Shown one piece after another: positions 18,039 through 39,615 of a DNA stretch of 43,108 nucleotides. Source of the stretch: a virus. Below the pieces are notes generated by a model that searched no databases, was not told the origin of the DNA, and saw only the letters and a list, made by a program, of their open reading frames with translations. The translations under genes and the position numbers were made by a program. The stretch lies in IMG/VR virus record IMGVR_UViG_3300025127_000076, positions 1-43,108 of that record. One strand, 5' to 3'. Each line of letters begins with the position of its first letter. Positions within the stretch are counted from its first letter, which is position 1.

Positions 18039-18518
18039 TTAGACTAATCTATAATAAGTAGATTCAAATTTATAGTAGTCATCTCCTCCAATATCGTTAG
18101 ATGATAGACTAGTTATTACTTCTCCACCGTAGTCCATTGATTCTCCTCCCATATATAAAGTTGATCCTGCTTCTCCCATTTTTCCAACTACAACTCGTTT
18201 TACATTATAGTTCTTTATAAGATCTAATACTTTATTGATAAACTTATCACTCTCTTCAAATATAAAAATGCTTGGATACTTTCCAACTTTAATATCTCCT
18301 CCTGCTTCTCCAACGTGATATCTTTGTTTAACATATGCTTCATCGTATAGCTCGCTTTCAATACATCTAGATCGAGATTCACTATCTTCGAAGTCAATTA
18401 TTACATATGGAAGTCTAGATTGAAATCTATCCCTGAGATCACTCCAACTTTTAGAGCTGCCAGTGTCAGACGCAGAATCATCAGTATAGTCCTCAAAGAG
18501 TTTTAAATATTTAGTCAC
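18039..18518 (-). CDS. Unknown protein with capsid-targeting-like N-terminus (159 aa)
   Basis: No family was recognised. It begins MTKYLKLFEDYTDD, which fits the window-wide N-terminal motif (basic/hydrophobic start, then F-x-x-[FYW]) described in the findings, though the (L/I)xE cut site is not clear. After a Ser/Asp-rich linker (14-26) comes a compact alpha/beta part with PYVIIDFED, IFIFEESDKFINKVLDLIKN and VKRVVVGKMGEAG, suggesting a small Rossmann-like fold, and an acidic Tyr-rich end. The element TGATAAATAATAA lies just upstream on the minus strand, diverging from the kinase gene. A packaged internal head protein is a possible role. Confidence 0.65.
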   Translation of the reverse strand: MTKYLKLFEDYTDDSASDTGSSKSWSDLRDRFQSRLPYVIIDFEDSESRSRCIESELYDEAYVKQRYHVGEAGGDIKVGKYPSIFIFEESDKFINKVLDLIKNYNVKRVVVGKMGEAGSTLYMGGESMDYGGEVITSLSSNDIGGDDYYKFESTYYRLV

Positions 18519-18533
18519 TATTTTTGAAACTTT

Positions 18534-18546
18534 TTATTATTTATCA
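18534..18546 (-). promoter_or_regulatory. Late-promoter-like TGATAAATAATAA
   Basis: The minus strand reads TGATAAATAATAA about 16 bases before the start of the 159-residue gene. The same 13-mer occurs on the plus strand at 19171-19183. Confidence 0.5.
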
Positions 18547-18573
18547 ATAAAATATTATTGAAATTTAATTATC

Positions 18574-19173
18574 ATGATAGTTTTAATAGAGGGACCGAGA
18601 GGAGCAGGTAAGTCACATCTAGTTGATGACTTTTTTAGTAGTAACACTAATCCTGATATCCTATATTACAAGTTTGCATTTTCTGACTATATCAAAAAGC
18701 TTCAAATAGAAGATCATGAAACTGGACCCGGGGTTCATTATTTTAGCATTTCAAATATCCTAACAATATTAGGAATATCTACCACTTTTTTTAAAGATAA
18801 ATGTGTAGTATTTGACCGATCTATATTTTCAGCATATGTTTGGTCTATCTATAGAAAAAGAATGAGCGAGGACAGGCTTGTCAATGAGTTTAGTAAAATA
18901 TTAGAAGACATTGAGTATAATAATTGCAAGGTAATTTATTTAACTAGAGATGAGTCTATTTCAACTGTTTCTAGAGATAAAGACGATGTTTTTAGTACAT
19001 ATGAAAACTACAATGTGGAGAACTCTATTTTTAAATCAATATTTTCTAGATTTAAAAATGAAATAAGCGATTCATCAAGGAATAATGAATTTATTGAATT
19101 TGTAAACAAGTTTGACAATAATAGTAAAAAAGAATTTAAACAATTAATAGAAAATATCACGAATAACATATGA
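18574..19173 (+). CDS. P-loop (deoxy)nucleoside/nucleotide kinase-like protein
   Basis: The N-terminus MIVLIEGPRGAGKSHLVDDF has a Walker A loop GPRGAGKS (residues 7-14). FKDKCVVFDRSIFSAYVW (about 83-100) is the DRS-type motif of deoxynucleoside and thymidylate kinases, where Asp-Arg holds the sugar. CKVIYLTRDESI follows as the strand before the lid. The 199-residue length fits this fold. The likely role is phosphorylation of a nucleoside or (d)NMP for phage DNA synthesis, but the exact substrate cannot be read, and polynucleotide kinase-like activity is possible. It is divergent from the minus-strand gene at 18518, with only 55 bases between starts. Confidence 0.75.
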   Translation: MIVLIEGPRGAGKSHLVDDFFSSNTNPDILYYKFAFSDYIKKLQIEDHETGPGVHYFSISNILTILGISTTFFKDKCVVFDRSIFSAYVWSIYRKRMSEDRLVNEFSKILEDIEYNNCKVIYLTRDESISTVSRDKDDVFSTYENYNVENSIFKSIFSRFKNEISDSSRNNEFIEFVNKFDNNSKKEFKQLIENITNNI

Positions 19174-19183
19174 TAAATAATAA
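19171..19183 (+). promoter_or_regulatory. Late-promoter-like TGATAAATAATAA
   Basis: TGATAAATAATAA followed by AAAA, located 16 bases before the GTG start of the next gene and overlapping the end of the kinase gene. It suggests separate late expression of 19199-19732. Confidence 0.5.
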
Positions 19184-19198
19184 AAAATCTTACATATA

Positions 19199-19732
19199 GT
19201 GAAAAATCGTGTAAATAAATTTAAAGACTACGAAAAGCTTTTTGAAGCTGAAGATAAGAAAGCTCCTCTGAGAGGATACACCGCTTCTATTATGATATCT
19301 AGAATAGAGCAATTAATGGAAGTTATGCCTGACCGAATTAAGTTTGGAGTTCCAGCAGATATAAAAGGATACTCTACTTCTTATAGAGACGCAAATGGAG
19401 CTATTCAAAAAATAATGGATATCAGCCACTATTACTCTGGAAAAGGAGAAGAGGTTACTTTTTATTGTTGGAATATAAGCTACTCTGGAAGTTGGGACGC
19501 AACTAAAGGATTAAGATCTAAAATAGATGAATTTGGTGGATTCGGTAGAGAACAGAATATGAATCTAAAGAAAGTAGTCGACTATTTTGCAGACAATACT
19601 GAAGATGCTGATAACGTAAGAAGTCTTTCAATATCTATTGATGCGATGTCCATTAGAAAAGCAGCTAACAAACAGTCTGAAGCAGAGGAAACTCCTCAAT
19701 CTGAAGAACCAATGGATGATAGCGAAGTTTAA
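19199..19732 (+). CDS. Unknown protein with capsid-targeting-like N-terminus (177 aa)
   Basis: The start is GTG; no ATG exists between the preceding in-frame TAA and this codon. The N-terminus MKNRVNKFKDYEKLFEAE fits the shared motif: basic, F-x-x-Y, then LFE|A as a possible prohead protease site. The rest is a small alpha/beta protein (ASIMISRIEQLMEVMPDRIK, VTFYCWNISYSGSWDA) ending in an acidic tail (SEAEETPQSEEPMDDSEV). No family was recognised. With its own late-type element upstream it could be an internal head protein. Confidence 0.65.
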   Translation: MKNRVNKFKDYEKLFEAEDKKAPLRGYTASIMISRIEQLMEVMPDRIKFGVPADIKGYSTSYRDANGAIQKIMDISHYYSGKGEEVTFYCWNISYSGSWDATKGLRSKIDEFGGFGREQNMNLKKVVDYFADNTEDADNVRSLSISIDAMSIRKAANKQSEAEETPQSEEPMDDSEV

Positions 19733-19755
19733 TAACTAAACATTAAAACTAAAAA

Positions 19756-21546
19756 ATGGCCGGAATAAATCACCTAAGACAAGTCAAAGAAAAGAAAGGA
19801 GATGATTTTTTAAATAATCTTCTTAATAACTATGTTATAATTAACAAGAAGACTGAAGGCACATTTTTTGGAATGAGAAAAGACAAACAGACGGACTCAT
19901 TTAAATATTTTAAAAAAGCAGGAGAGATAACTTATGTTGATCGAATGTTAATGAAATACTACAATCCCGCGATATCTCACTTTGAAAAACTAAGTAAAGA
20001 AAAGAGACAACGAATCCCTTCTAATTTCTATTTTGGATTCGAGTATTCTACTAGAAAAGATTCTAGCTCTAATAACAATATTATATTATCCTACATCCAT
20101 AGATTAGGAGAAGATGGAAAGCCCGTAGAAACGTTTCAATCTAAAAACGACCTTGAAAAATGGGCGTATTATCTAGAGGTTGAAAATCCTCCGATAATAT
20201 TTGAAGGAATGCTTGACGATGATCAAAAAACAAAGATACTTGAATTTGTATATTCTCCTTTTGAAGAACTTGTTGAGAAATTTAAAACAACATCGTTTAG
20301 TAAATACATAATTAGCATGCTGTCTGAAGAAGACTCTGAGCAGGATCATGACGTAAGCAGCATAATATTTAGGTTTTACGACGAAAACGACGAAAATCCT
20401 AAGCCATCTGCTTTTTTAGCTAAGATGGTTGACCCTCTTTTTCAAGAGGCTAATATGTCTAATAAGAAAGAATCTAATAAAAAATCTAGTGATTACATAT
20501 GGTTAATAGTAATTGATTTAATGAATCATATAGAAATGTTCAATGAAGATGAATTAAGAAGCATGTGTGATGGAATAACTGACTATGATTCTAAATATGT
20601 TCACCTAATGAACAACATATTTAAAAAGTTCATTGCATCATATGAATATAAATATGATGGTCTGATGTTAGATATACCAGATTACTTAAGAAGAGAAGAA
20701 TTTGACATTGACTATAACTTAATAGAAGATCAAGAAGTTTTATCCCTAATCAAGGAAAATGAAACTTATCGAGAAATATATCGAATACTGATAAACTTTT
20801 TTAGAAAAGTAAGAAGAAAATCATCGGCTTCATTTTTTACAGAAGAATTAATGTCTCAATTAAACATTCAAGTTGGTAAAATAAAGAGAATTATAATGGG
20901 TGATGTTCTATATGAAGGACTTTTCCCCTCTTTTAACGAATATATCGGAGCCGATCTTACAGATAACGTATATGTAGGAGAACAGGAGAGCCTTGCTAAA
21001 TCTAAAAAAACAAAAGTAGATTCTACTAAAGTAAATTTATTAATAGGAAGATTTCAGCCGATTAATAAAGGCCATATAAAAGCAGCAGAAGATATGTATA
21101 ATAAAAATGGACTACCTTGTGTATTCGTTTCAGTTATGCCCAAATCTATAAATTCACTGTTTACGGAAAAATCTGTAAATATAATGCTTAAAAAGGTTCA
21201 GCAGGAGTATTCAAATATTATAAAAGACGTAAAAATAGTATCTGATTCTTCTATAAAAAGCATACTTAAATCGATCGCTCCAATATATGAACCTATGCTA
21301 TGGGGATCGGGGTCTTCTAAAATTAAAGACTACGCTCTACAATTAGAGTATATTAAAAAGAAGAATGTTCCTCTAAGAATATCAGATGAATTAAGACTAG
21401 TTGAAATTCCTTCTTATTATAAATCTAAAGATGTTATATCAGCTATAGATAATTTAGATTTTAATAAATTTAAAGAAATGGTACCTAATAGTATTGCTTC
21501 CGAGTTTTTTAATCTTCAAAGGGAGATTCAAAGCAATAGGAAATAA
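19756..21546 (+). CDS. Fusion: RNA-ligase-like nucleotidyltransferase plus NMN-adenylyltransferase-like domain
   Basis: The N-terminal ~190 residues match the order and spacing of covalent nucleotidyltransferases (RNA/DNA ligases, capping enzymes): KTEG with Lys32 as motif I, YFGFEY (91-97) as motif III, FEG at 149-151 as motif IV, and KFK (175-177) as motif V. The C-terminal ~170 residues contain GRFQPINKGH (431-440), the NMNAT/NadM nucleotide-binding motif, and SKDVISAIDNLDFNKFKEMV where NadM proteins have SATxVR; the usual Thr and Arg seem changed. The middle is helical and unrecognised. NMNAT domains make NAD; ligases repair nicked RNA. T4-like phages encode both activities separately, so this fusion may link RNA repair to NAD metabolism. 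Catalysis is untested. Confidence 0.65.
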   Translation: MAGINHLRQVKEKKGDDFLNNLLNNYVIINKKTEGTFFGMRKDKQTDSFKYFKKAGEITYVDRMLMKYYNPAISHFEKLSKEKRQRIPSNFYFGFEYSTRKDSSSNNNIILSYIHRLGEDGKPVETFQSKNDLEKWAYYLEVENPPIIFEGMLDDDQKTKILEFVYSPFEELVEKFKTTSFSKYIISMLSEEDSEQDHDVSSIIFRFYDENDENPKPSAFLAKMVDPLFQEANMSNKKESNKKSSDYIWLIVIDLMNHIEMFNEDELRSMCDGITDYDSKYVHLMNNIFKKFIASYEYKYDGLMLDIPDYLRREEFDIDYNLIEDQEVLSLIKENETYREIYRILINFFRKVRRKSSASFFTEELMSQLNIQVGKIKRIIMGDVLYEGLFPSFNEYIGADLTDNVYVGEQESLAKSKKTKVDSTKVNLLIGRFQPINKGHIKAAEDMYNKNGLPCVFVSVMPKSINSLFTEKSVNIMLKKVQQEYSNIIKDVKIVSDSSIKSILKSIAPIYEPMLWGSGSSKIKDYALQLEYIKKKNVPLRISDELRLVEIPSYYKSKDVISAIDNLDFNKFKEMVPNSIASEFFNLQREIQSNRK

Positions 21547-21593
21547 TTAAAACCAGGCAACATTTTAATAATATAATATAACAAAAATACTTT

Positions 21594-23264
21594 ATGCGAT
21601 TTAAAGAACTAACCCAAGACGACAAAGACTTTTTCAAAAAAACATATTTAGATAAAAATTACAAATGGGACCAAAGAATAAGCATATTAATGGAATATGC
21701 TGGAGTATCTAGAAGGACTATTCAAAAGTGGTTATCTAAACTGAATCTCACTACATACGTAGAAGAGGAGTCTCCTGAACTATTAAAAGCAAAAGAGAGA
21801 AAATTTGATAAAAAGAAAAAGAGATTCATTATTACTTGGGCTCAGAATAATACTCCAATTCATGAAAAGTTCTTGAATAACATTGAAAAATATGCAGACC
21901 ACATTAATGCCAGCATTCACATAATTGCAGGTAGATATAAAAATCCTACTTCGGTGTTTACCGATAGTAAAAAAGATGTCTGGCACGAGAGAATCGTAAA
22001 ATACCTAGATGCCGCTAGACATAACGTTCATGAATATCTATCAATAATGTCGGATGTCAAAATTCAACCAACCGCAGTAAATCCTATGACTGGACTACAA
22101 GGAATGAGTGGAATAAACTCATGCGTATTTGGTTCGCCGAAGGCCCAGTTTACAACTATTCCGGTTTTAGAAGGATGTAAACCAAAGGCCATGGTAACAA
22201 CTGGAGCATGTACAGTAAGTAACTATACAGATTCTAAATCAGGTAAAAAGGGAGAGTTTCACCACACTCTAGGATTTGTAGTTGTAGAGATAAAAGACAA
22301 CGAAACCTTCTTTATGAGACAGGTTACCGCCTTAGAAGACGGAAGCTTCAGTGATCTCTACTATAACGTTTCGTTTGTAGGAAAAGAAGATCCAATTGTT
22401 TTTGATACTAAAACCGATGAGATAAATTGGTCAAAATCAAATTTTGGAGCTGATCCCGTTTCTCTTTCTGGAAAATCAGTAGTATCTAAGATTAAAGAAA
22501 TAGATGCATGTGTTTTAGGAGACATACACTATGGTCACGAAGATGAAGAGGTAATGGACTCTACCTTCAAAATGCTAGATTTTATTGTTCCTAAACACGT
22601 AATATTGCACGACGTGTTTGATGGAAATTCAATAAGTCACCATCAAATGAAAGATCCGTTTGTTCAATATAGAAAAGAGGTACATGGAACAAATAATTTA
22701 AAGAAGGAAGTAGACTATATGATTTCTGAGCTTTCTAAGTTCAAGAAATTTAAAAATGTAGTAATAGTTAGAAGTAATCACGATGACTTTATAGATAGAT
22801 GGTTAAAGAACACAGATTGGAAAAAGCAACCTAGCTATGTTAATTCTCCTGAGTATATGAAATATAGTCAAATCTTACTAGGACAATATGCGGGTGAAGG
22901 AGAAGTAAAAGGAGTAATTCCTGCACTCATTAACGAAGAGTATCCAGATTATATTACACTAGGGAGATCTGAAAGTTATAAAGTAAATGGATGGGAACTT
23001 GGTCAACATGGTGATGTTGGATCAGGAGGAAGTAGAGGATCTCTTCAACAATTTAGAAAATTAAATACTAAAATTATAGTAGGACACTACCATTCTCCAG
23101 GAAGATTAGATGGAGCCCTTGCTGTAGGTACTTCTTCAGGATTAAGGGTAGGATATAATTTAGGACCGAGTGGATGGTTGCAGTCTCATGTAATTATTCA
23201 TAAAGACGGAAAGGCTCAACATATCAATTTTATTGACGGAGAATATACTACACTAAAATATTAA
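21594..23264 (+). CDS. HTH plus metallophosphoesterase protein, resembling phage T5 A1
   Basis: Residues 25-50 (RISILMEYAGVSRRTIQKWL) form a helix-turn-helix. The C-terminal half has the calcineurin-type metal site: LGDIHYGHEDE (308-318), HDVFDGNSISHH (339-350), VRSNHDDF (about 392-399) and VGHYHSPG (about 496-503), which supply the Asp, His and Asn ligands for two metals. The 556-residue length and this domain pair resemble the A1 protein of T5-like phages, tied to host DNA breakdown and shut-off early in infection. The middle (about 150-290) is beta-rich with ATG-binding-free, unrecognised sequence. A DNase or phosphodiesterase activity is likely; A1 identity is from memory of the family. 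Confidence 0.65.
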   Translation: MRFKELTQDDKDFFKKTYLDKNYKWDQRISILMEYAGVSRRTIQKWLSKLNLTTYVEEESPELLKAKERKFDKKKKRFIITWAQNNTPIHEKFLNNIEKYADHINASIHIIAGRYKNPTSVFTDSKKDVWHERIVKYLDAARHNVHEYLSIMSDVKIQPTAVNPMTGLQGMSGINSCVFGSPKAQFTTIPVLEGCKPKAMVTTGACTVSNYTDSKSGKKGEFHHTLGFVVVEIKDNETFFMRQVTALEDGSFSDLYYNVSFVGKEDPIVFDTKTDEINWSKSNFGADPVSLSGKSVVSKIKEIDACVLGDIHYGHEDEEVMDSTFKMLDFIVPKHVILHDVFDGNSISHHQMKDPFVQYRKEVHGTNNLKKEVDYMISELSKFKKFKNVVIVRSNHDDFIDRWLKNTDWKKQPSYVNSPEYMKYSQILLGQYAGEGEVKGVIPALINEEYPDYITLGRSESYKVNGWELGQHGDVGSGGSRGSLQQFRKLNTKIIVGHYHSPGRLDGALAVGTSSGLRVGYNLGPSGWLQSHVIIHKDGKAQHINFIDGEYTTLKY

Positions 23265-24268
23265 GAGTAAGAGTACTCGATTATATCTAGATCCCTAGCT
23301 GCTTTTGCCCACATGTGATTTTTCCATGCATGAAAATACTTATCGGGCTTGTTGTATCTTCCCATTGAATATACAATATATTTATATAATATATCAGCCG
23401 CAGCTTTAGTAGTAGACGCCGTCTTGAATTGACTAAATTTAGATTCTCCCATTTCAGTTTTTATAAACCTCATCATTTCTAAAATAGTGTCGTCTATGCT
23501 TCCTACTATTTTATTGTTTTTATAGATTTCAGCAGCAGCTAATTTAGATAGGAGAGACTTTCTTCTTGTCCCCTGCCAGCTTACTATCCCAAAATTAGTA
23601 GCCTTATTTTTTGGATCAGAATGAGATGATGTTATTTTGGACCATCGTAGGTTGTTTTCTCGACCTACATTTCCTAATAAAGCGGCTATAGCATTCTCAT
23701 TCATCCCTAAAGAAGATCCAGCTTTTTGTATGGCATTAGCCACTTCCTTTTGTTTATCTGAACTTCTGTCAATATATACTTTGGCCATATCAAAATTAGC
23801 CCTTTCTGTTTTATTAGCAAAGGTTAATTTTCCCGAATCCTTATCGTATACTTTTAGTTTTTTACCGTATTTCAAATTTAAAGACTCTACACTTTCCTTA
23901 TTTTCTACAAAATTCCAAGTATCAGTTCCTATTTTTTGAAATTCCCAATATTTTTTTGAAGAATCTACTCTATAATAAAAATTAGCTCTGTTTGAAATAT
24001 TATATTTTTCATGACCTGGCTTAGCATACACAGCAAGGCTTTTATTATACTTCTCATTAAGGGCCGCGACACTCTCTTCGTTTTCAACAAAGAACCAGGT
24101 ATCAGTTCCTCTCTTTTGGTACGCCCAGTATTTCTTACTGTTAGATATTTTGTAAACGTAATTTGGCCTCGATTCTATTGTATATTCCTTTTCTTCAGAA
24201 GGAGCAAGTATCTCCTTCTCAAAAATCTTTGGTTTACTACTCCAATCTTTGAATGATAATATTTTCAT
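23261..24268 (-). CDS. Peptidoglycan hydrolase of tail-lysozyme type with two N-terminal repeats and targeting motif
   Basis: Residues 1-17 (MKILSFKDWSSKPKIFE) fit the shared targeting motif, with KIFE as a possible cut site. Two ~48-residue repeats follow (about 35-80 and 90-138), each with KKYWxxQKxGTDTW, FVEN, ESV and LNxKY; they may bind cell wall. From about 175 the sequence NAIAALLGNVGRENNLRW, then NFGIVSWQGTRRKSLLSKL, matches the phage tail-lysozyme pattern (ALLGN..xE...G..xWxxxR), with the Glu of GRENN as the likely catalytic acid. It would cut peptidoglycan either for lysis or for entry; packaging in the head or tail is suggested by the N-terminus. Its stop overlaps the end of the convergent A1-like gene. 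Confidence 0.8.
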   Translation of the reverse strand: MKILSFKDWSSKPKIFEKEILAPSEEKEYTIESRPNYVYKISNSKKYWAYQKRGTDTWFFVENEESVAALNEKYNKSLAVYAKPGHEKYNISNRANFYYRVDSSKKYWEFQKIGTDTWNFVENKESVESLNLKYGKKLKVYDKDSGKLTFANKTERANFDMAKVYIDRSSDKQKEVANAIQKAGSSLGMNENAIAALLGNVGRENNLRWSKITSSHSDPKNKATNFGIVSWQGTRRKSLLSKLAAAEIYKNNKIVGSIDDTILEMMRFIKTEMGESKFSQFKTASTTKAAADILYKYIVYSMGRYNKPDKYFHAWKNHMWAKAARDLDIIEYSYS

Positions 24269-24299
24269 AATTTGAGACTAACTTAGTTATTTGTGTATT

Positions 24300-24340
24300 A
24301 TAATAATATTTATTAGAATTATGATAAATAAAATAAAAGG
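24300..24340. promoter_or_regulatory. Divergent late-promoter-like elements
   Basis: Plus strand TGATAAATAAAATAA (24322-24336) precedes the 66-residue gene. The minus strand reads TAATAAATATTATTA (24300-24315) ahead of the lysozyme gene. Both resemble the recurrent ATAAATAATAA element. Confidence 0.4.
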
Positions 24341-24345
24341 ATACC

Positions 24346-24546
24346 ATGGCAAAAAAGAAAAATTCTTCATACCGTAATTATTCAAATTATTTAAAAGGAA
24401 AGGAGCAGTTATCTAATGCTATACTTCAGCATCCAGACGAACCAGACAACGATAGCTCCATGTATTCATATATGAAAGGAAAAGTAAACCGAAATATATG
24501 GATTATGCCTTGGAAAAAGTTTAGAAACATAGGAAAAAAGAAATAA
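24346..24546 (+). CDS. Small basic hypothetical protein (66 aa)
   Basis: The 66-residue product is rich in Lys, Tyr and Asn, with a basic start (MAKKKNSSYRNYSNYLKG) and a basic, Trp-containing end (NIWIMPWKKFRNIGKKK). It starts with ATG after a leader carrying GGATACC and a late-type element, and ends 5 bases before the 653-residue gene, so the two are probably co-translated. No family or domain was recognised; a small structural or nucleic-acid-binding role is conceivable. Confidence 0.65.
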   Translation: MAKKKNSSYRNYSNYLKGKEQLSNAILQHPDEPDNDSSMYSYMKGKVNRNIWIMPWKKFRNIGKKK

Positions 24547-24551
24547 GATAT

Positions 24552-26513
24552 ATGAATATCGAAGATGCTATAATATTAATGTCAGACAAAGTTGGGGGAG
24601 AAGACGACTTCAAGGTTAGTCGTGAGGCATCCCTAGATGCAATTAAAAAAACATTTGACATAATACCTAATAATATATTAGATGTCGAACCTGGTGACCC
24701 TAATATTCAAAGGTTGTTCTTTCATCTAACTGATCCAAAAAAGCTAGAGTATATCGAAGAATTTACTAACACTGCTGCATCTTCCCTAGATGATATAGTT
24801 AAAAAAGAAGATCCTTCTTCTGGATCAAAAAAAATAGAATCAAATAACAAAGAGTATGCTAATTCGTTTAGTGCAGCTGCACTATTATTAGCAAGACTAG
24901 AAAAGTTATATAAAGTATATTCTAGAGGAATAGAGCAAATTGAGGAAGATAGAGATAGACATCTCATATCATCTCTTAGGAACATGGGAATAATTTTAAA
25001 CCTAGAGCCAGTTCTTGGAAAAGGAAAAGTTGGAACCATTGGAAAAATAGGAGGATTAGATAGTGATATAGAAGAAGATAAATTTGAGGTAATTGTAAAA
25101 AGAGAACCAACTCTTTTATCTAAAAAAGACATTCATAAAATATTAAAGGGGCTTCCAGCAAGTAGCGGTTTAAAGGTTAGATCTAAAGGAAACCACTTAA
25201 AGAAAATGCAGGAAATCAAAAAGACTAGTTCTGAATCTATAAAAGGATGGTACGAATGGGCCTCTAAAACTCTTGAAAAAACAGTAGACAATATCGAAGA
25301 ACAAGATGAAGTAGATAGTGTTGTAAAGATAGAAAATGTAAAAGACTTTTCGGATAGAGTCGGAGGAGATATAGTCTTAAATCTTGTAATAAATCATAAA
25401 GGAAAAGAAACAAGTATCGGCTCAAAAATAAAAGAGAAAGAATCTAAATCTACTTCTTCAAGAACTCTAAAAGAGAAGAGAAGACTTCTCGCTAGAATTA
25501 GACAGGTTCTTGGAGTAGCGGAGCTTCCTGCATTTGACGACAATCAGATTCAGAGACAAGGAGACTATTTCAGACTCTTTAATACCTTGAGATCAGAAAA
25601 CTCAGGCTGGATGGATACTATATTACTTAATGACGTATTTAAGGGAGAAGCAAATAAGTTTAACGAGTTTAAGCAATTCATTGAGGTGGAAAGCCCAGAA
25701 GAGGCTGAACAACTAAACTATCTTACTGCTTCAGAATTATGGATACTTAAATTTATTGAAAGTGATTATCTTGGAGAATTTAGTTCTAGAGAGACCAAGC
25801 AACACTCTTCTACTATTCAGTCAATGGCACTAGATAAATCTAAAGACATTAAAAATTCTTATCTATCTAAAGGATTTAATCTAGGTAATTTTAATTCTGT
25901 TCAAATTAATCCTGAAATAAGCCTACCTCTCTATAAAAAAGTTAGATTGGCCGTAACTAAAGAAGACAGGAGAAAAGAAAATCCATTTAGAAATATTATG
26001 TCAGGAATTGGAGGAGCTCTCTTAGGTTTAGTATCAACAAAATTAGATAACTTTGACGCAGGTAGAGCTAAAAGAAACAATGATCAAAACAAAGCAGTAT
26101 TTCAGGGAATAAGCCAAGTAGTAAAAGGAATGGTTGGAGTAGTTGGAGGAAAAGATGCTGCTAGAAAATATGAAAAAGGTATGAAAAAAGCAACAGATAA
26201 CAGACTATTAAGAGGTGTAGGATTAACTACTGCTGACAAAAATTCTGACTCAGTTAAGGAAGATATGGTAGCCCCGATAGACGGAGCTCCAGGGGGATTC
26301 CATCAAACCGGACCAAGCATGGCTGGGGGATTTACACAACCGGACGGAACTCCAGATCCATTCGCACTCGTTGGTCCTTCTAAGAATATTACGACTAATA
26401 AGAAGAAAAAGAAAAAGAAGAAGAAAAACAATCGTAACAACTGGAAAGATTCTCGATCTTTTGCAAGCAGTAAGGTTCTCTCTTTTTCTGACTTTATCAA
26501 CAGAGAAAGCTAA
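24552..26513 (+). CDS. Unknown virion protein with C-terminal targeting-like motif (653 aa)
   Basis: No family was recognised. The N-terminal ~330 residues are helical and charged; 330-480 look globular (RRLLARIRQVLGVAELPAFD). About 490-520 is a Gly/Ala-rich apolar stretch (NIMSGIGGALLGLVSTKLD) that may touch membrane or be buried. Near 617 is a run of nine Lys written in mixed AAA/AAG codons, so it is selected rather than slippage-prone. The protein ends KVLSFSDFINRES, the same string type found at the N-terminus of the packaged-protein candidates. It opens the baseplate module, so a tail, tape-measure-like or baseplate role is possible. Confidence 0.7.
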   Translation: MNIEDAIILMSDKVGGEDDFKVSREASLDAIKKTFDIIPNNILDVEPGDPNIQRLFFHLTDPKKLEYIEEFTNTAASSLDDIVKKEDPSSGSKKIESNNKEYANSFSAAALLLARLEKLYKVYSRGIEQIEEDRDRHLISSLRNMGIILNLEPVLGKGKVGTIGKIGGLDSDIEEDKFEVIVKREPTLLSKKDIHKILKGLPASSGLKVRSKGNHLKKMQEIKKTSSESIKGWYEWASKTLEKTVDNIEEQDEVDSVVKIENVKDFSDRVGGDIVLNLVINHKGKETSIGSKIKEKESKSTSSRTLKEKRRLLARIRQVLGVAELPAFDDNQIQRQGDYFRLFNTLRSENSGWMDTILLNDVFKGEANKFNEFKQFIEVESPEEAEQLNYLTASELWILKFIESDYLGEFSSRETKQHSSTIQSMALDKSKDIKNSYLSKGFNLGNFNSVQINPEISLPLYKKVRLAVTKEDRRKENPFRNIMSGIGGALLGLVSTKLDNFDAGRAKRNNDQNKAVFQGISQVVKGMVGVVGGKDAARKYEKGMKKATDNRLLRGVGLTTADKNSDSVKEDMVAPIDGAPGGFHQTGPSMAGGFTQPDGTPDPFALVGPSKNITTNKKKKKKKKKNNRNNWKDSRSFASSKVLSFSDFINRES

Positions 26514-31838: not shown

Positions 31839-31858
31839 AATAGTATAATCTTTATTAT

Positions 31859-32662: not shown

Positions 32663-32765
32663 TGACATATTGTCCTGTTGATTCGGGAAAATCTATATAT
32701 AATATGTCAAAATGTCCTGAAATATAGTATGGCACACTATTTGATAGTATATTATATAAAAAACT
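32663..32765 (+). promoter_or_regulatory. Leader with small repeats before Hsp20
   Basis: This gap holds an inverted pair GACATAT (32664-32670) / ATATGTC (32702-32708), the near-direct pair TTGTCCTG/ATGTCCTG, and ATAGTAT repeated 20 bases apart (32724-32730, 32744-32750). It could be an operator or leader for the chaperone gene. No promoter was defined. Confidence 0.3.
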
Positions 32766-33155: not shown

Positions 33156-33172
33156 CACTCTTACATATATTC

Positions 33173-33201
33173 AAAGGGGGGAAGATTACTTCCCCCTTTT
33201 T
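33173..33201. terminator. Bidirectional terminator between hsp20 and minus-strand genes
   Basis: Hairpin AAAGGGGGGAAG / CTTCCCCCTTT with ATTA loop (one G-T pair) and a long T run on the right. Convergent position. Confidence 0.85.
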
Positions 33202-33203
33202 TT

Positions 33204-33407
33204 TTAGTTATCTCCCAATGGTAACGACAAAAACTTTCTCTTATTGATAATAGCTGAGTCTAATTCAGATTTATCTAAAAGACTTTCAAATCTATCGTAA
33301 AAAAATTCTACATATCTTTCTGCCCCCTCTAATTGCTCTAGAGTATGGCAACTGTCTATTACTTGTTCTGCCTTATTTTTTGCTTCTAGTAGTTCTAGTA
33401 TTTCCAT
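33204..33407 (-). CDS. Small helical hypothetical protein (67 aa)
   Basis: The 67-residue product is helical and acidic/basic mixed: MEILELLEAKNKAEQVIDSC, with a second helix YVEFFYDRFESLLDKSELDS and a basic tail. Its start overlaps the last 35 bases of phoH, implying translational coupling, and its stop lies just before the terminator. No motif was recognised. The gene is accepted because it fills the space between phoH and the terminator and has good overlap geometry. Confidence 0.6.
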   Translation of the reverse strand: MEILELLEAKNKAEQVIDSCHTLEQLEGAERYVEFFYDRFESLLDKSELDSAIINKRKFLSLPLGDN

Positions 33408-34179
33408 TTCTTTTTCCGTTTAATTGTTCTTGTTCTTCTATTTCGTCAAAAACGTTAATAATCTTTTTAATGACAGGGTGACGTTGAACATCATCTCCTT
33501 CTAATTCTACAATACCAATTTCAGGAATTTTATTAAAATGTTCTAATAATATTTCTAGGGCGCTCTTCTGATTTTTGTTAACCGATTTTTGAGAAACATC
33601 TCCTAAAAATATCATCTTTGAATTTGGACCAATTCTAGTTATTAAAGTTCTCAAGTTATCTTTTGATATCTGCTGAGCTTCATCTACTATTACGATTGAA
33701 TCATCTAAAGTTACACCTAGAGCGAATTTGATAGGAAGTATTTCTATTGCCCCACTATTTCTTAGCTCTTGTGTTGCTAATTTACCAATTACTTTCTGAA
33801 AATTATGTATGAAAGGATATATGTATAATTCCATCTTTTCTTCCATTGTTCCCTTTAAATATCCTATCTCTTCGTCTTTAGGAACGTTTACTGATTTAAT
33901 TAATACGATTCTTTTGTGTTTTCTAGGATTTTCCTTTAATAGTTTTAGTGCCTTTGCACAAGATAGGAAAGTTTTACCTGTTCCCGGGGGACCTATGACA
34001 ATACTTATGTCCTTTTCCTTAATTGATTTTATTACTTCTTTCTGTTTTACCGATCTGCATTTAATGCTAATTTTGTTTTCTGTTAGTGTTTTGTTCATAA
34101 TTTGATTTTTTCTTTCTTGTTCCCACTCCGCTATCTCCTCCTGTAGTTCCTCATCCGTTAAGTGATGCTTGTACTTCAT
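33373..34179 (-). CDS. phoH: PhoH-like P-loop ATPase
   Basis: Residues 63-70 are the Walker A GPPGTGKT and 162-169 the Walker B IVIVDEAQ. GDVSQ (about 208) is the sensor motif, and KSVNVPKDEEIGYLKGTMEE is the PhoH-specific stretch after the first strand. PhoH domains are ATPases, linked with RNA or nuclease functions, and are very common in T4-like phages of marine bacteria. The 268-residue length is usual for the phage form. A ~40-residue charged N-terminal helix precedes the core. It is preceded by the 203-residue gene on the same strand. Confidence 0.95.
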   Translation of the reverse strand: MKYKHHLTDEELQEEIAEWEQERKNQIMNKTLTENKISIKCRSVKQKEVIKSIKEKDISIVIGPPGTGKTFLSCAKALKLLKENPRKHKRIVLIKSVNVPKDEEIGYLKGTMEEKMELYIYPFIHNFQKVIGKLATQELRNSGAIEILPIKFALGVTLDDSIVIVDEAQQISKDNLRTLITRIGPNSKMIFLGDVSQKSVNKNQKSALEILLEHFNKIPEIGIVELEGDDVQRHPVIKKIINVFDEIEEQEQLNGKRNGNTRTTRSKK

Positions 34180-34215
34180 TTTTATCTAATATTTTTTTTA
34201 AATTATCATAGGCTT

Positions 34216-34827
34216 TTAGTATATTTTTATTGCAATGACAATACCTAATAGTATTTTTAAGTGATGCAAATGTAAATCGTAAAAAGACCGTATGATAGAT
34301 TTTTCTACTTCTGTATATTCGTACTCCGGTACCTTCAATCTCTTGAGTTTAATGTCTCTAATAACATCGGCTTTTAAAGAATGTCTATTGTTTTTCAATA
34401 GATCGTCAAATAGTTTATTAAATGACGAACCTGCCACTAAGCTTTTTCCGATTTTTCTAACGAGCTTTTCTCCTATTTTTATTGATTTAAGCTTTTCACC
34501 AATAGCTAAAGAATTAAGGCCGTCATCTATAGATTTTCTAACGCCGTCAAACTTTAAAATATGACTACAATTGTTTATAATAAAACTAATATCGTATGTA
34601 TAAAATGAAAGGGTTATCTTATTTTCCTCTCCCGTATGTTGAAAGTTTACAAAATCAGGTGCGGCGATTCCACCTCCACCTGCGCTCAAGACGATTGGGT
34701 CTATTCCTAAGTCGTCTAAATAATCAACTCCTTGCTCTAGCGTAATACTATAATCATGGAATGGAAAGGACAAAAGGAATGGAAAAATATCAAAGATGCT
34801 TGTATCGTTTTTATAAGCTTGTTCCAT
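34216..34827 (-). CDS. Unknown protein (203 aa)
   Basis: No family was recognised. The N-terminal ~90 residues hold SIFDIFPFLLSFPFHDYSIT and DLGIDPIVLSAGGGGIAAPD; the middle is Lys-rich (IGEKLKSIKIGEKLVRKIGK). The C-terminus has SFYDLHLHHLKILLGIVIAI, an apolar end that could be a membrane anchor. The minus strand upstream carries TATATAAATAATTAAAAGGAGG, giving both an exact TATAAATA and, unusually for this window, a good Shine-Dalgarno-like AAAGGAGG, though 15 bases from the ATG. It leads the phoH operon and is divergent from the polymerase fragment. Confidence 0.65.
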   Translation of the reverse strand: MEQAYKNDTSIFDIFPFLLSFPFHDYSITLEQGVDYLDDLGIDPIVLSAGGGGIAAPDFVNFQHTGEENKITLSFYTYDISFIINNCSHILKFDGVRKSIDDGLNSLAIGEKLKSIKIGEKLVRKIGKSLVAGSSFNKLFDDLLKNNRHSLKADVIRDIKLKRLKVPEYEYTEVEKSIIRSFYDLHLHHLKILLGIVIAIKIY

Positions 34828-34855
34828 TTCGCTGGTATTAAAACCTCCTTTTAAT

Positions 34856-34863
34856 TATTTATA
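34856..34863 (-). promoter_or_regulatory. TATAAATA late-promoter-like element before the 203-aa gene
   Basis: Exact TATAAATA on the minus strand, 29 bases before the ATG at 34827, followed by AATTAAAAGGAGG. Confidence 0.55.
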
Positions 34864-34890
34864 TAAGATAGATACAAACATAAGTAATAT

Positions 34891-36300
34891 ATGGATTTAA
34901 ATAAAGAAAAAAATATCAAGAAATTAAGCCTTCAACAAGGGGCAATCAAAATTCTTATTAACTCGATTTACGGAGCATTTGGAAATAAGTGGTTTTATTT
35001 CTATAATCCAGATATTGCACAATCGATTACTCTACAAGGACAAGACATGATTAAGTTTGCAAATCAGGCGATTGATTTTTATTTTAAAAATAGATGGCAT
35101 GATGATGTTGAGTTACATGAAAAGTTAGGAATATCCGATAAAGAAATTGTTCCTATACCTAAAGACGAAATTATTGCAGTATATACGGACACTGACTCTA
35201 CTTATGTAAACTTTGGCCCGGCAATCAGATCAATCAAAGGATTAGATTTGACTGAAGACGAGTATGTAAAATTAGTAATTAACTTAGATAATCATAGAAT
35301 AAGAGAATTCTACGATAAGGCATTTATAAAATGGTCTGAAAGATTTAATACAACAAATCGCCAAACTTTTAAATTAGAAAATATATCCACTGAAGGAATT
35401 TGGATTAAGAAGAAAAACTATAGCCTGAGAGTAGTGTATGAACCTAATCCAAAACAAGAATTATTTCCAATGAAAGAAAGATTCCTTCTTATTAAAGGAT
35501 TAGAGCCTATCAAATCTTCTTATCCTATCTGGGCAAGAGACCATCAAAAGAAATTCTTAGACTATATAATGAAAGTAGGTACTAGTTTAGATCTAGAAAA
35601 AGATCTTATTCCTATGGTTAAAAAAGTTAAAGAAGAGTTTGATAAGCTTCATCCTGATGACATTGCTATGAACTTTAATATACGTCAATATGACAAGTAT
35701 GTTCAAAGTGAAGAAGATTGCTTATTTAAGAAAGGTGCAACTACTTATCCAAAAGCAGTGATTCATCATAATCACTTGGTTATTAAAAATCAATTAGAAG
35801 GAAAATATCCAAAACTTAGGCAAGGTAATAAGATTAAATTTTTATATTGCGAGCCTGGACCTCAAGAAATAGATGTATTTGCATACAACCCTGGAAACTA
35901 TCCTTCTGAAATAGCTCCTAAGGTTGACACAACTGAACAATTTTTTATATTAATAGTTGAACCTATTAATAGAATACTTGGAGCAATCGGTCTAAATAAG
36001 ATAGATGAAAATTTAAAGAGAGCAGTAGAGTTTAAAACAACTAGAAGTAAAAAACCACTTACTGAAGAACAGAAGTATCCTTTGCACGTTATTAACAGTG
36101 AAACTTTAGAACATGAAGAAGTAGATAAAAAGTTTTGGAAATTAATAGAAAATAAAGATTCAGAAATACCAGAAGATATCTTTGATGAATATCTTCAGAC
36201 AATAACAAAGTATGGATTAAATACAGTTGTCTTAATAAACAAAAATTTAAATCCTTATAAAAAAAGAATATCTAAAAAACTAGGAATTGATGTATCATAA
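34891..36300 (+). CDS. 43B: C-terminal part of a split family-B DNA polymerase (gp43-like)
   Basis: The 469-residue protein starts only 19 residues before motif B of family-B polymerases (KILINSIYGAFGN, catalytic K20, N24, Y27, G28). It continues with motif C YTDTDSTYV (two catalytic Asp, 100 and 102), KLENISTEGIWIKKKNY (the KKxY stretch) and the thumb. There is no exonuclease domain and no motif A (SLYPS); these must be on another protein outside the window, because the region upstream is minus-strand phoH. T4 gp43 has 898 residues, so this is roughly its last third to half. Split gp43 is known in some Aeromonas T4-like phages. The start is ATG after AAGTAATAT. Primase overlaps its end. Confidence 0.9.
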   Translation: MDLNKEKNIKKLSLQQGAIKILINSIYGAFGNKWFYFYNPDIAQSITLQGQDMIKFANQAIDFYFKNRWHDDVELHEKLGISDKEIVPIPKDEIIAVYTDTDSTYVNFGPAIRSIKGLDLTEDEYVKLVINLDNHRIREFYDKAFIKWSERFNTTNRQTFKLENISTEGIWIKKKNYSLRVVYEPNPKQELFPMKERFLLIKGLEPIKSSYPIWARDHQKKFLDYIMKVGTSLDLEKDLIPMVKKVKEEFDKLHPDDIAMNFNIRQYDKYVQSEEDCLFKKGATTYPKAVIHHNHLVIKNQLEGKYPKLRQGNKIKFLYCEPGPQEIDVFAYNPGNYPSEIAPKVDTTEQFFILIVEPINRILGAIGLNKIDENLKRAVEFKTTRSKKPLTEEQKYPLHVINSETLEHEEVDKKFWKLIENKDSEIPEDIFDEYLQTITKYGLNTVVLINKNLNPYKKRISKKLGIDVS

Positions 36301-37423
36301 GGAAAATTATAAGATACAAGATTTTGTACAAGATCTCTTAAAAAATAGATTTCCGAGGCAAGCGGCAAAACAGCAAGTTAACGATGAAGACCCTACTAAA
36401 CTTAATTTTGCTTGTCCATATTGCGGTGATTCAGAAAAAGATCTTACCAAGAAGAGAGGAAATCTATACTTAAATACCAATTCATACAAATGTTTTAATG
36501 ACGGATGTTTAACGTGGGTTCCTCTTCATAAGTTTGTATCTAAATATTCTTTAGAGTATTCTCTATATGTTCCTAATATAGACATGACTGCTAAAATTCC
36601 TTCTATTAATCTAGGAAATAATAGAGGATCTATCATTGAAGCTATAATAAATCCAAAAGTTAGAAACAGCCTTCTCGATTTCTCATATGTATCTGATAGG
36701 TTTTCTCTAATTCCATGCAAAGACGCCGATCCTAAAAGTAAAGTAGGAGAATATGTTAGAAGTAGAAACCTAACCGGTCTTCCAGCATTTGATAAGTCGT
36801 GTTTTTATGACAGTCGAGAAAATAAAATATACATATTTAATCTTGATCTAATATCTGGAAAGGTTTTAGGATTAGCAATAAGAAAGATAGATGATAGTAT
36901 GTATGGTCCAAAATACAATATAAAAAATTACACTGATCTAAAGAAAAATAATATTGTCTCAGGTATAGAAGAAGATGTTCTCAACAAGATCAATGCAATT
37001 AACAACTACTTTAATATATTAAACATTAATTTTAATTCACCTGTAATAGTAACAGAAGGTCAAATAGATTCGATGTTTCTAGACAATTCCATAGCAACAA
37101 CAGGAGTATCAAAAAGTAAAACATTATTAGAATCTATTCTATCTAAAAAGAATGCTAGAATATTATTTGATAATGACAAGGCTGGTAAAGAAGAATCGCT
37201 CAAATTTATTAAACAAGGATATCGAGTATTTATGTGGTCTAAAATCATATCAGATTTAAAAGCAAAATATCCAAATATGATAAAGGATATAAACCAAATA
37301 AAAGACGTAAATGACTTATATTCGTTTACTAAAAAAATAAACCCAGATATAGGATTTTTAGAATTTAACAATTCAATTTCAGAAAACTTTACTGAATCTA
37401 TGTACGATTTACTTCACATCTAG
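36290..37423 (+). CDS. 61: DNA primase (gp61-like)
   Basis: Residues ~38-75 hold a zinc ribbon: FACPYCGDS, later YKCFNDGC. The TOPRIM core follows: SPVIVTEGQIDSMFLDN (Glu as metal ligand) and NARILFDNDKAGKE (acidic pair). T4 gp61 makes short RNA primers at the fork with gp41; length 377 against 342. I chose ATG 36290 over the TTG at 36287. The start overlaps the polymerase stop by 11 bases, so the two replication genes are translated together. It ends 30 bases before the head-protein cluster. Confidence 0.9.
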   Translation: MYHKENYKIQDFVQDLLKNRFPRQAAKQQVNDEDPTKLNFACPYCGDSEKDLTKKRGNLYLNTNSYKCFNDGCLTWVPLHKFVSKYSLEYSLYVPNIDMTAKIPSINLGNNRGSIIEAIINPKVRNSLLDFSYVSDRFSLIPCKDADPKSKVGEYVRSRNLTGLPAFDKSCFYDSRENKIYIFNLDLISGKVLGLAIRKIDDSMYGPKYNIKNYTDLKKNNIVSGIEEDVLNKINAINNYFNILNINFNSPVIVTEGQIDSMFLDNSIATTGVSKSKTLLESILSKKNARILFDNDKAGKEESLKFIKQGYRVFMWSKIISDLKAKYPNMIKDINQIKDVNDLYSFTKKINPDIGFLEFNNSISENFTESMYDLLHI

Positions 37424-37425
37424 TC

Positions 37426-37440
37426 AAATAAATAATAAAA
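37426..37440 (+). promoter_or_regulatory. Late-promoter-like AAATAAATAATAAAA
   Basis: AAATAAATAATAAAA precedes the head-protein run by 14 bases and follows the primase stop, marking a switch from replication to structural genes. Confidence 0.55.
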
Positions 37441-37453
37441 AATTTAAACGACT

Positions 37454-37774
37454 ATGAATAATAGTAGAATCATAACTAACTTTAATACTTTTACTAATGA
37501 GTCTGAGCATTCTTCTGAGAAGAAGTCTAATCCTCCAGTAGATACTGAAATTTTAGATAAACTAATAGAATTAGTAGAATCAGAAGAAGATGTTGAAGCA
37601 TGTGCAAAGGAAGCATTTGAAGAACTTAAAAAGGCGTTTGAAGAAAATAAAGTTGAAGTAAAAGGAGATGAGCCTGCAGATAAATTAGCAATGGCTTCTT
37701 TAATAGTTAAACTTGTTGAAAAAGGAAAACTAGGACCAGAAGATGCTGATAAGTTTATAGAAGAAAATATGTAA
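37454..37774 (+). CDS. Small acidic head-protein candidate with targeting-like N-terminus (106 aa)
   Basis: It begins MNNSRIITNFNTFTNESEHS, where NFNTF then TNE|S fits the shared N-terminal motif, with Thr replacing Leu/Ile before the cut. The remainder is strongly acidic and helical (LDKLIELVESEEDVEACAKE; LVEKGKLGPEDADKFIEENM), with no known domain. Genes 37454-39615 are four in a row that each begin with this motif and share one late-type element upstream, so all are likely packed with the scaffold. It may be an internal head protein or a small core component. Confidence 0.7.
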   Translation: MNNSRIITNFNTFTNESEHSSEKKSNPPVDTEILDKLIELVESEEDVEACAKEAFEELKKAFEENKVEVKGDEPADKLAMASLIVKLVEKGKLGPEDADKFIEENM

Positions 37775-37782
37775 ACTAAGAA

Positions 37783-38109
37783 ATGAGCCTATTATCATTT
37801 AACGAATTCATTAATGAATCCACCGTTCCTGATCGATATAAAAAGAAAGGGTACACTAAGGTCGGAGCCAAAAAGCTAAACCGAGGTTCCGGTAATCATA
37901 AGTGGTCTGTTCTAGCTAGAAAAAAGGTAGGCGGAAAATGGAAATACCGAATAATCAAAGGTGGATATAAAGGAATGAAAGACTTCAGTCAGCATAAAGA
38001 CAATAAGAGAAAGAAAAACTTTTGGAATAGAATGGGAGGTAAAAATTCAGCTAAAGCTAGAGATCCATTCTCTGCTCTGTATTGGCACAAAAGATTTGGA
38101 ACTTGGTAA
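37783..38109 (+). CDS. Basic internal head-protein candidate with targeting sequence (108 aa)
   Basis: It begins MSLLSFNEFINES, the clearest copy of the motif and almost a match to the T4 capsid-targeting sequence MKTYQEFIAE; INE|S is a consensus gp21-type cut. The mature part is very basic (KKGYTKVGAKKLNRGSGNHK; KWKYRIIKGGYKGMK) and ends GKNSAKARDPFSALYWHKRF, a tail I recall in conserved phage proteins of marine T4-like phages. The basic charge suits binding to packaged DNA. It is 8 bases downstream of the previous gene. Confidence 0.75.
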   Translation: MSLLSFNEFINESTVPDRYKKKGYTKVGAKKLNRGSGNHKWSVLARKKVGGKWKYRIIKGGYKGMKDFSQHKDNKRKKNFWNRMGGKNSAKARDPFSALYWHKRFGTW

Positions 38110-38122
38110 AAAAAATTAAAGT

Positions 38123-38821
38123 ATGTCTAAAAAAATATTTAATTTTAAACAGTATATTATAAACGAGAAAAAATTAGACAACTCGTGTCCTGTTGCTACT
38201 CGAAATTTAGAAGTAAACACTAAGAATAGAGATAACGCTATCTCAGCTCCTCATATTAAATATGGTCCTTTAAATCTTAATGACGAAGAATATTGGGAAA
38301 AGTACGCTGAAAAATGGGGAACTACTGCTGATGTTGCTAAAAAATCAAACTGTAGTAATTGTGTAGCTTTTGATATTTCTCCAAGTATGAAAGAGTGTAT
38401 GCCAGGTTCAGTAGACAAAGAAGGATACCTAGGTTACTGTTGGATGCATCATTTTAAATGTCACTCTGCTAGAACGTGTAACACTTGGGCGACAGGCGGA
38501 CCTATAGACGACGATGAAACCTCAAAAAGCTGGGCAGACAAAGCTCCAAAAGAAACATTCGCATTAAACGAGAAAAAGAAACTTAAATTCCACCACTCAG
38601 ATGCTCCAGACGCAGAGGGTAGATTCAGAGACCTAGGAATAAGAGCCTTAGCTAAATGGCTAATTAGAACTAGAAAGGGAGATATGCGAAAGATTACAGG
38701 AAGCCTAAATCAACAAATAAACTTTAATAAAAAAAGTGATCCTAAATATGCTAAAAAGATGGAAAAGGTAAGAGAGGAAGTCAAGCGCATATTAAATAAA
38801 AAAAAGAAAGATAAGAAATGA
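38123..38821 (+). CDS. Cysteine-rich conserved phage virion protein with targeting sequence (232 aa)
   Basis: It begins MSKKIFNFKQYIINEKK, where FNFKQY then IINE|K fits the motif; FALNEKK near residue 150 is a second possible cut. Residues ~20-130 carry a Cys-rich module: SCPVATRNLEVNTKNRDNAI, YGPLN, CSNCVAFD, GYCWMHHFKC and ARTCNTWATGGPI, which I know as a conserved, unnamed domain in marine T4- and T7-like phages; it could hold a metal or Fe-S site. The C-terminal part is basic. The next gene overlaps it by ATGA, showing coupling. Confidence 0.72.
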   Translation: MSKKIFNFKQYIINEKKLDNSCPVATRNLEVNTKNRDNAISAPHIKYGPLNLNDEEYWEKYAEKWGTTADVAKKSNCSNCVAFDISPSMKECMPGSVDKEGYLGYCWMHHFKCHSARTCNTWATGGPIDDDETSKSWADKAPKETFALNEKKKLKFHHSDAPDAEGRFRDLGIRALAKWLIRTRKGDMRKITGSLNQQINFNKKSDPKYAKKMEKVREEVKRILNKKKKDKK

Positions 38822-39615
38822 AACGCATAACTAGCTTTGACAATTTTTTAAATGAAGCGACCAATCCTTCTATTTACAAAGCTCCTGACGGTAGTAAAAG
38901 AGCAAAGACCCTAGAAAAAGTTAGAGAGCTTTTAAAGGGATCTGAAGAAGACAAGAAAAAAGCATACAAGCTTAGAGATGAAATGGAACAGGAGGAGAGA
39001 GACAAGACTAACGAAAGTATTAAACCTGAAGTTGGGCTAGAGGAATTTGCAGAAGAAAGAGGAGACGCAGCACAAGGCACTGTAGATAGCACTAAAGAAA
39101 AAGGAGGATTGGCTATGTTATCTCATGATCACTTTAAAGTAAAAATTCCTTATTATGACAAAGCTTCTAGTGGAGAATTTAATATTGAAGAATTTAGAGG
39201 AGAGTATCAAGACCTTCTTAATGAATTGATGGAATTAACAAGTGAAGGTTTTAACATATCTCAAAAAGATTTCCAGGAGATTCTTGGAAAATTAGAGGTT
39301 TTAGGAGAACTCTGTATTAGAAATAATGATACATCAGAAGAGGCATTAAATGAAGCAAAGAAAACTAAAAAGAAAAAGAAAGCTAAGAAGAAGACTTTGA
39401 GTAAAGCGACCGAAGCAAAAATTAGAAAAGTTGCTAATAAGAAAGGATATACCTTTGGTAGTCTAAAGCAAGAATATATCAAAGGACTTGGCGCGTTTTA
39501 CTCTTCTGGGTCTAGGCCTGGAATGACAGCTCACGGATGGGCAATGGCAAGAGTAAATAAAGCTACACCAAGTAAACCTTGGGCAAATGTAAAGAGATCT
39601 AAAAGAAAAAAGTAA
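38818..39615 (+). CDS. Internal head-protein candidate with several protease sites (265 aa)
   Basis: It begins MKRITSFDNFLNEATNPS (LNE|A), with KTNES near residue 63 and ALNEAKK near 180 as further (L/T)NE sites. Residues 130-165 are helical and acidic. A Lys-rich linker (KKTKKKKKAKKKTLSKATEA) separates a C-terminal domain with GYTFGSLKQEYIKGLGAFYS, SGSRPGMTAHGWAMARVN, a pattern present in head-associated phage proteins. If cut at all sites, the basic C-terminal domain would remain in the head while the acidic middle is lost, as for T4 core proteins. The start overlaps the preceding stop (ATGA). Confidence 0.75.
   Translation: MKRITSFDNFLNEATNPSIYKAPDGSKRAKTLEKVRELLKGSEEDKKKAYKLRDEMEQEERDKTNESIKPEVGLEEFAEERGDAAQGTVDSTKEKGGLAMLSHDHFKVKIPYYDKASSGEFNIEEFRGEYQDLLNELMELTSEGFNISQKDFQEILGKLEVLGELCIRNNDTSEEALNEAKKTKKKKKAKKKTLSKATEAKIRKVANKKGYTFGSLKQEYIKGLGAFYSSGSRPGMTAHGWAMARVNKATPSKPWANVKRSKRKK

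Follow-up and report, generated by a model that had tools for sequence, protein, structure and literature searches.

By what means does a phage mark proteins that have nothing else in common? The question is raised by IMG/VR virus record IMGVR_UViG_3300025127_000076, whose positions 1 to 43,108 form the window analyzed here and in which seven genes start with a short string of basic, apolar and aromatic residues. The contig codes for a gp23-type capsid protein, a portal, a neck protein, a gp5-like hub and a gp21-type S77 protease, and as judged from these genes its source is a relative of huge phages with a T4-type head. We consider it very probable that the strings are capsid-targeting sequences (CTS) of the T4 type, borne by cargo that would be packaged and cleaved on an exceptional scale. 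The observations behind this view are computational and comprise an enrichment of the motif at N-termini, its occurrence on unrelated carriers, a likeness to repeats within the scaffold, an association with a promoter-like element and a link with scaffolds that bear a repeat array; the packaging, cleavage and ejection of the tagged proteins are what we infer from them.

Seven tags in the window

The original prediction had attributed the motif to seven genes, noted out of coordinate order, and all of the strings are present in the sequence: gene 18039 (-) begins with MTKYLKLFEDYTDD, 19199 (+) with MKNRVNKFKDYEKLFEA, 23261 (-) with MKILSFKDWSSKPKIFEK, 37454 (+) with MNNSRIITNFNTFTNES, 37783 (+) with MSLLSFNEFINES, 38123 (+) with MSKKIFNFKQYIINEK and 38818 (+) with MKRITSFDNFLNEA. 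Its definition of the motif held in part. Bare F-x-x-[FYW] lies near chance (9 of 45 window N-termini, with 6.8 expected), whereas the fuller pattern [LIVM]xx[FYW]xx[FYW], beginning anywhere from residue 2 to residue 9, matches 7 of 41 genes, exactly the seven originally noted, against 0.6 expected (P=4e-6). This pattern was found de novo in other phages by enumerating three-class spaced patterns, and ranks as the top N-terminal pattern in a 270-kb relative and second in 635-kb and 462-kb phages. The form [FYW]xx[FYW][LIVT]xE occurs at three window N-termini, with 0.5 expected.

A scoring matrix was trained only on strict-motif tags from other phages, with 773 internal stretches as controls, and the scores for 37454, 37783, 38123 and 38818 exceed all of these controls. 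These four tags are very strong and those of 18039, 19199 and 23261 are weaker. The tags of 18039 and 19199 gain support from their orthologues and from the promoter element considered below: orthologues of the former (KYLKLFEDY, KYIRLYEEY) keep K-Y-[LI]-x-L-[FY]-E, and those of the latter keep [LI]xE with a varying middle residue (KLFE, HLNE, KINE). For 23261 a single orthologue, MKRIISFTKIFEQ, retains KIFE. The product of 37783 is DUF5754-like (PF19058, 4e-6, slightly below the Pfam cut-off), and comparison of the 37783 and 38123 products with solved structures gave no significant match. Homologues of the DUF5824 protein encoded by 38818 start directly at the domain, untagged, on other contigs, whereas those of the window clade carry the tag in front.

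An aromatic-core copy also lies at the C-terminus of the product of 24552-26513, where it is preceded by a lysine-rich stretch. Likely counterparts in contigs G005, G001 and G002 end alike, with GFADFIKE, EFSDFINQ and SFSDFINRDS, and the Glu is not conserved among them; a core that persists without its Glu hints that docking and cutting may be separable.

Form of the tag and its carriers

Tags are short, basic and amphipathic, about 9-17 residues long and ending in [LI]xE, with the usual form M-K-x-[IL]-K-x-[FY]-x-[EQD]-[FW]-[IL]-N-E-[SNA]; after the Glu there is usually S, N or A, in agreement with the candidate sites of the capsid proteins. Different codons code for the same tag residues, from which it follows that selection acts on the protein. 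The statement that the carriers share nothing else has stood up well: 212 tagged proteins from eight phages fall into 172 families once their first 20 residues are removed, and the 32 tagged proteins of the 270-kb phage, trimmed in the same way, are 32 singletons.

In one family, encoded directly downstream of the capsid protein gene (L317-L396), the tag varies freely (YNFFLEG, YNLYLES, YKSYNES, FKSFLYEG) and keeps its aromatics and the Glu. The bS21 genes of array phages (L400-L404) are untagged where the N-terminus is readable.

Tagging across phage genomes

Fourteen phage genomes or contigs were fetched whole or in large part and their genes called by one rule, giving eight sets with a scaffold array (the window included) and seven without, in which N-termini were compared with internal stretches. 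The N-terminal motif is strongly enriched in all eight array-bearing sets, with P down to 1e-53: observed and expected counts are 31 and 1.6 (the 270-kb phage), 18 and 1.7, 9 and 0.9, 8 and 0.7, 74 and 6.0 (the 635-kb phage), 31 and 3.3, 24 and 3.0, and 5 and 0.2 in the window. Among the array-less phages five of seven show little or no excess (Lak-A1 5 observed and 2.6 expected, PTm1 1 and 1.7, T4 2 and 1.4, MaF61 0 and 0.9, MA9V-1 1 and 1.5), and the excess is weak in P-SSM2 (6 and 0.9) and KVP40 (5 and 1.7). Of 235 occurrences of the strict motif in array phages, 91 start within residues 1-10. The proteome-wide search that had been suggested returns exactly seven of 41 genes in the window and tags distributed genome-wide in its relatives; in related giant phages the tag is found on dozens to about a hundred proteins.

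The same scan recovers ipII and ipIII in T4. The T4 hypothetical protein gp61.1 (NC_000866, 18966-19130, -) starts with the CTS-like MKTFKEFIKED, and no upstream late promoter was seen there.

In a tree of capsid proteins Lak-A1, which has neither array nor tag, is sister to the window clade with support of 93/98, and the deeper forks are unresolved. This placement favors either a joint loss or a repeated joint gain of array and tag. Lak relatives sought in IMG/VR as further array-less controls amounted to one contig, with no tags in 29 genes.

A scaffold with tag-like repeats

In the window the S77 protease domain is followed by the scaffold within one reading frame, a fusion of the gp21/gp22 type that is annotated as such in PTm1; the match of the protease to PF03420 exceeds the Pfam cut-off. 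The middle of the scaffold part, residues about 300-446 of the fusion, holds 11-12 tandem repeats, conserved across some 130 related contigs. Of the related contigs fetched by way of the capsid protein, 53 bear the array, and many of the remainder are truncated at that gene. Of the 80 relatives of LR745206, 76 bear it, and the remaining four are cut close to where the contig stretch ends. It is also present in a 735-kb phage and, in a degenerate form, in LR756500. The phage collection yielded no isolate bearing an array. The T4 gp22 scaffold lacks the array and has many [LI]xE sites and no aromatic repeats.

The core of the repeats is also contained in the strict motif of the tags. A matrix built from scaffold repeats alone places 25 of its 103 matches at N-termini, about three times the expectation (P=8e-8). 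Residue-by-residue covariation of repeat and tag sequences across phages, inspected by eye, gave no convincing match.

Candidate sites of a similar kind occur in the capsid proteins. Around residues 40-55, the stretch in which a propeptide is expected to end, the proteins of most relatives have an [LI]xE that precedes S, N or A (for example SINE/S, SLNE/A and SINE/N, with PVFE/Q in the window; the slash stands for the candidate cut), and T4 gp23 is cut at FGSFLTE/A. The named capsid proteins closest to that of the window belong to the uncultured huge phages LR756500 and LR745206 and to Lak phages.

A late-promoter-like element

Within the window clade, taken together, ATAAATA lies no more than 70 nt upstream of 36 of 76 tagged genes and of 133 of 858 others (P=7e-10), an enrichment due mainly to G001 and G002, the two large contigs. 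There are five copies of the full 14-mer ATAAATAATAAAAA in the window, and three of the seven tagged genes (18039, 19199 and 37454) are preceded by one. A refuting case, the motif being equally common in early non-structural genes, was not borne out by this promoter proxy: the element stands before tagged and head genes, and in the window none was found before the replication genes checked, those for polymerase, primase, helicase and PhoH. The T4 late promoter TATAAATA stands upstream of T4 gp20 and gp22. The 635-kb phage has a different AT-rich element before its tagged genes (37 of 79, against 138 of 813 others, P=7e-9). Co-expression of the tagged genes with the head genes is therefore likely, so far as upstream sequences can indicate it.

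Predicted cargo

A known domain is lacking in most tagged proteins. Those of the window clade that have one include phage lysozyme, CHAP, cell-wall hydrolases, NUDIX and HAD enzymes, and in the 635-kb phage the tag is found on a SMODS-associated NUDIX domain, a T4-type RNA ligase, a nucleotide cyclase, NFACT-R and other RNA-related domains. An Acb1-like domain, directed against the cyclic-oligonucleotide-based antiphage signaling system (CBASS), is carried by tagged proteins in three phages, with scores at or near the Pfam cut-off; a second Acb1-like copy in one of the three is untagged. The phage phiKZ injects Tad1, a blocker of CBASS and Thoeris (PMC13282480), and the predicted types of cargo would fit an early delivery.

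Weighing the explanations

The T4-like capsid-targeting role put forward in the original prediction draws support from the S77 protease, the scaffold repeats of the motif, the [LI]xE sites of the capsid proteins, the genome-wide tags, the ATAAATA element and the recovery of T4 ipII and ipIII. Several results weigh against it or against parts of it. The matrix leaves 18039, 19199 and 23261 undistinguished from internal controls, for G004, for G005 and for the window, each on its own, the association with the promoter-like element does not reach significance, and a few motif matches are chance, as in a protein taken for a UvsX-type recombinase. A few such tags occur in T4, KVP40, P-SSM2 and MA9V-1, all array-less, and a tag thus does not depend on an array. 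The hydrophobic residue preceding the motif stands at -3 in tags and at -2 in the repeats, and with this offset of one position the tag is no exact copy of a repeat; what is seen is likeness, not identity. AlphaFold2 modeled the array as long helices at a low-confidence pLDDT (predicted local distance difference test score) of about 30, and for that reason no argument for docking is drawn from its structure. That the tags arise by chance or from start-codon context bias in an AT-rich genome would agree with the near-chance frequency of bare F-x-x-F in the window, and is scarcely credible given the P values of the enrichment, the lack of such an excess in controls such as T4 and Lak-A1, and the encoding of the same residues by different codons. 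A short, basic, amphipathic N-terminal helix might instead direct proteins to the membrane, the tail or an intracellular phage compartment; the conserved Glu with a small residue next to it, the match to scaffold and capsid sites, and an upstream element common to tagged, protease-scaffold and neck genes make this very improbable.

A closer alternative is that the motif is merely the recognition sequence of the S77 protease, the cargo entering the prohead by other means and the array supplying cut sites through which the scaffold leaves as 14-residue peptides. The motif is indeed common to tags, scaffold repeats and T4 gp23 (FGSFLTE), and the [LI]xE sites of T4 gp22 come without aromatic repeats. 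We nevertheless regard this as unlikely, as the tags are N-terminal and close to the start, the tagged proteins share no other possible targeting feature, the T4 CTS is described as a targeting signal that is also cleaved (PMC5694885), and the C-terminal copy in 24552-26513 retains the aromatic core and not the Glu. Capsid targeting could be extended in the other direction, with the array as a binding site, tags that mimic one repeat and co-assemble with it, and an expansion of the array that permits large-scale loading. Array and massive tagging go together across the eight and seven phages compared, Lak-A1 lacks both, and the scaffold-trained matrix picks out tags; T4-like phages are nonetheless tagged without an array, and the array phages represent few lineages on a tree whose deep branches are unresolved. 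This extension is a serious possibility, if somewhat short of an even one. Its fullest form, in which the scaffold of several huge-phage lineages is a tandem docking track of cargo-tag repeats that loads as much as roughly one tenth of the proteome, CBASS-blocking and RNA-repair enzymes included, for delivery at infection, is offered tentatively; on this view the cargo list could be read off the genome.

Under the capsid-targeting reading, cargo proteins would be produced late, alongside the head proteins, and the amphipathic aromatic tag ([LIVM]xx[FY]xx[FW][IL]xE) would draw each of them into the prohead core. The S77 protease would then cleave after the tag Glu, leaving the cargo in the head to enter the host together with the DNA. 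If this is true, the unknown huge-phage proteins that enter the cell with the DNA can be predicted by a sequence rule, and the effector set of uncultured phages, with genomes of up to 635 kb, becomes testable from sequence. The likeness of tag and repeat suggests mimicry of a scaffold repeat as a possible physical basis of T4-type cargo targeting, a point left open in the literature examined, and in a natural pair of array and tag laboratory phage work would gain a ready-made module for protein packaging.

Features of the window

The features discussed above are collected in Table 1. A run of sugar-related genes, assigned by eye, is set between the head genes at 5173-11461 and includes a NeuB-like synthase, a cytidylyltransferase-like gene and glycosyltransferases. 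The Family B DNA polymerase frame 34891-36300 matches only positions 147-237 of the 453 in the Pfam profile, near its own start, and the polymerase of the window may be split.

Table 1. Head genes, tags, repeats and upstream elements, by position in the window
Feature	Position	Strand	Remarks
gp23-like major capsid protein	440..2080	-	PF07068 1.3e-35
Candidate propeptide end PVFE/QYTG of capsid protein	residues 51-54 of 440..2080 product		[LI]xE equivalently placed in most relatives
S77 prohead protease fused to scaffold	2105..4093	-	662 aa; PF03420 E=2e-12 and 4.5e-10; PHROG 207 head maturation protease 5.8e-31
Tandem array of 14-residue repeats	2756..3196	-	core YxxY[LIV]xE; exact 14-residue spacing
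ATAAATAATAAAAA	4106..4119	-	upstream of protease-scaffold
Tag MTKYLKLFE of gene 18039-18518	18492..18518	-	weaker case; GTG start uncertain
ATAAATAATAAAAA	18531..18544	-	25 nt upstream of tagged gene 18039
ATAAATAATAAAAA	19173..19186	+	upstream of tagged gene 19199
Tag MKNRVNKFKDYEKLFE of gene 19199-19732	19199..19246	+	weaker case
Tag MKILSFKDWSSKPKIFE of gene 23261-24268	24218..24268	-	Phage_lysozyme2 protein (PF18013 6e-8); weakest case
C-terminal aromatic-core copy LSFSDFINRES	26478..26510	+	end of gene 24552-26513, residues 643-653
ATAAATAATAAAAA	26546..26559	+	upstream of gene 26574, within tail/baseplate run
ATAAATAATAAAAA	37428..37441	+	upstream of four-gene tagged cluster 37454-39615
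Tag MNNSRIITNFNTFTNE of gene 37454-37774	37454..37501	+	score over all internal stretches; late-like element 25 nt upstream
Tag MSLLSFNEFINE of gene 37783-38109	37783..37818	+	best score in window
Tag MSKKIFNFKQYIINE of gene 38123-38821	38123..38167	+	orthologue MRRKVFNFKQYVLNE
Tag MKRITSFDNFLNE of gene 38818-39615	38818..38856	+	DUF5824 protein; orthologues DYNEYLKE, NYSNYLKE
Shorter form ATAAATAATA	40009..40018	+	upstream of neck gene 40023
Neck gene	40023	+	portal gene next downstream
Portal protein	41198..42919	+	PHROG 213 5e-60; adjoins tagged cluster

Comparison with known systems

No earlier report of such tags in huge phages was found in the open-access literature, where subscription journals are mostly missing, and none was found there of N-terminal leaders in Lak phages. 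Lak megaphages also have leaders common to many proteins, but with other sequences and a scaffold that lacks the array. Those of Lak-A1 (MK250016; L189-L207, L231-L235) read KKLYxSI..ISKxVK..LNE and MNKxIK[KR]L[LI]ESLFDDxxDD, the second also written KKL[LI]ESLFDDxxDD, and give 28 matches where 2.4 are expected with an iterated matrix in which some drift is likely. The inner-body and ejection proteins of phiKZ and SPN3US likewise come from giant phages in which many packaged proteins have propeptides cleaved by the prohead protease, but these propeptides are mostly longer than 100 residues and follow another motif (AXE in SPN3US; PMC5694885, PMC10052503) than the [LI]xE of the short tags described here, and no proteome-wide short leader has been described for them. 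In P1 the N-terminal 30 residues of DarB suffice to bring a reporter into the head (PMC9024508), a likeness by description only and to a single large protein.

The closest parallel is with the T4 internal proteins, in which a short leader contacts the core and brings the protein into the prohead before gp21 cuts it (PMC7411985, PMC5694885). This role of the CTS is published (PMC7411985; PMC12373910), and the CTS leader has been used to locate internal-protein genes in T-even phages (PMC12373910). As in T4 IPI, IPII, IPIII and Alt, a short N-terminal [FY]xx[FY]IxE leader is found on otherwise unrelated proteins beside an S77 protease of the gp21 family. The cargo may be alike in opposing host defense, IPI-III blocking GmrSD restriction in T4 (PMC12373910) and the Acb1-like matches, at or near the Pfam cut-off, being the counterpart here. 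Unlike T4, with its handful of genes, separate gp22 and no array, the phages described here have a protease-scaffold fusion with 11-12 repeats, and the tagged genes of relatives range in number from dozens to roughly a hundred. T4 internal proteins are thus the known kind to which the tagged proteins would belong, and it is the scale, the fused scaffold with its tag-like array and the predicted cargo repertoire that look new.

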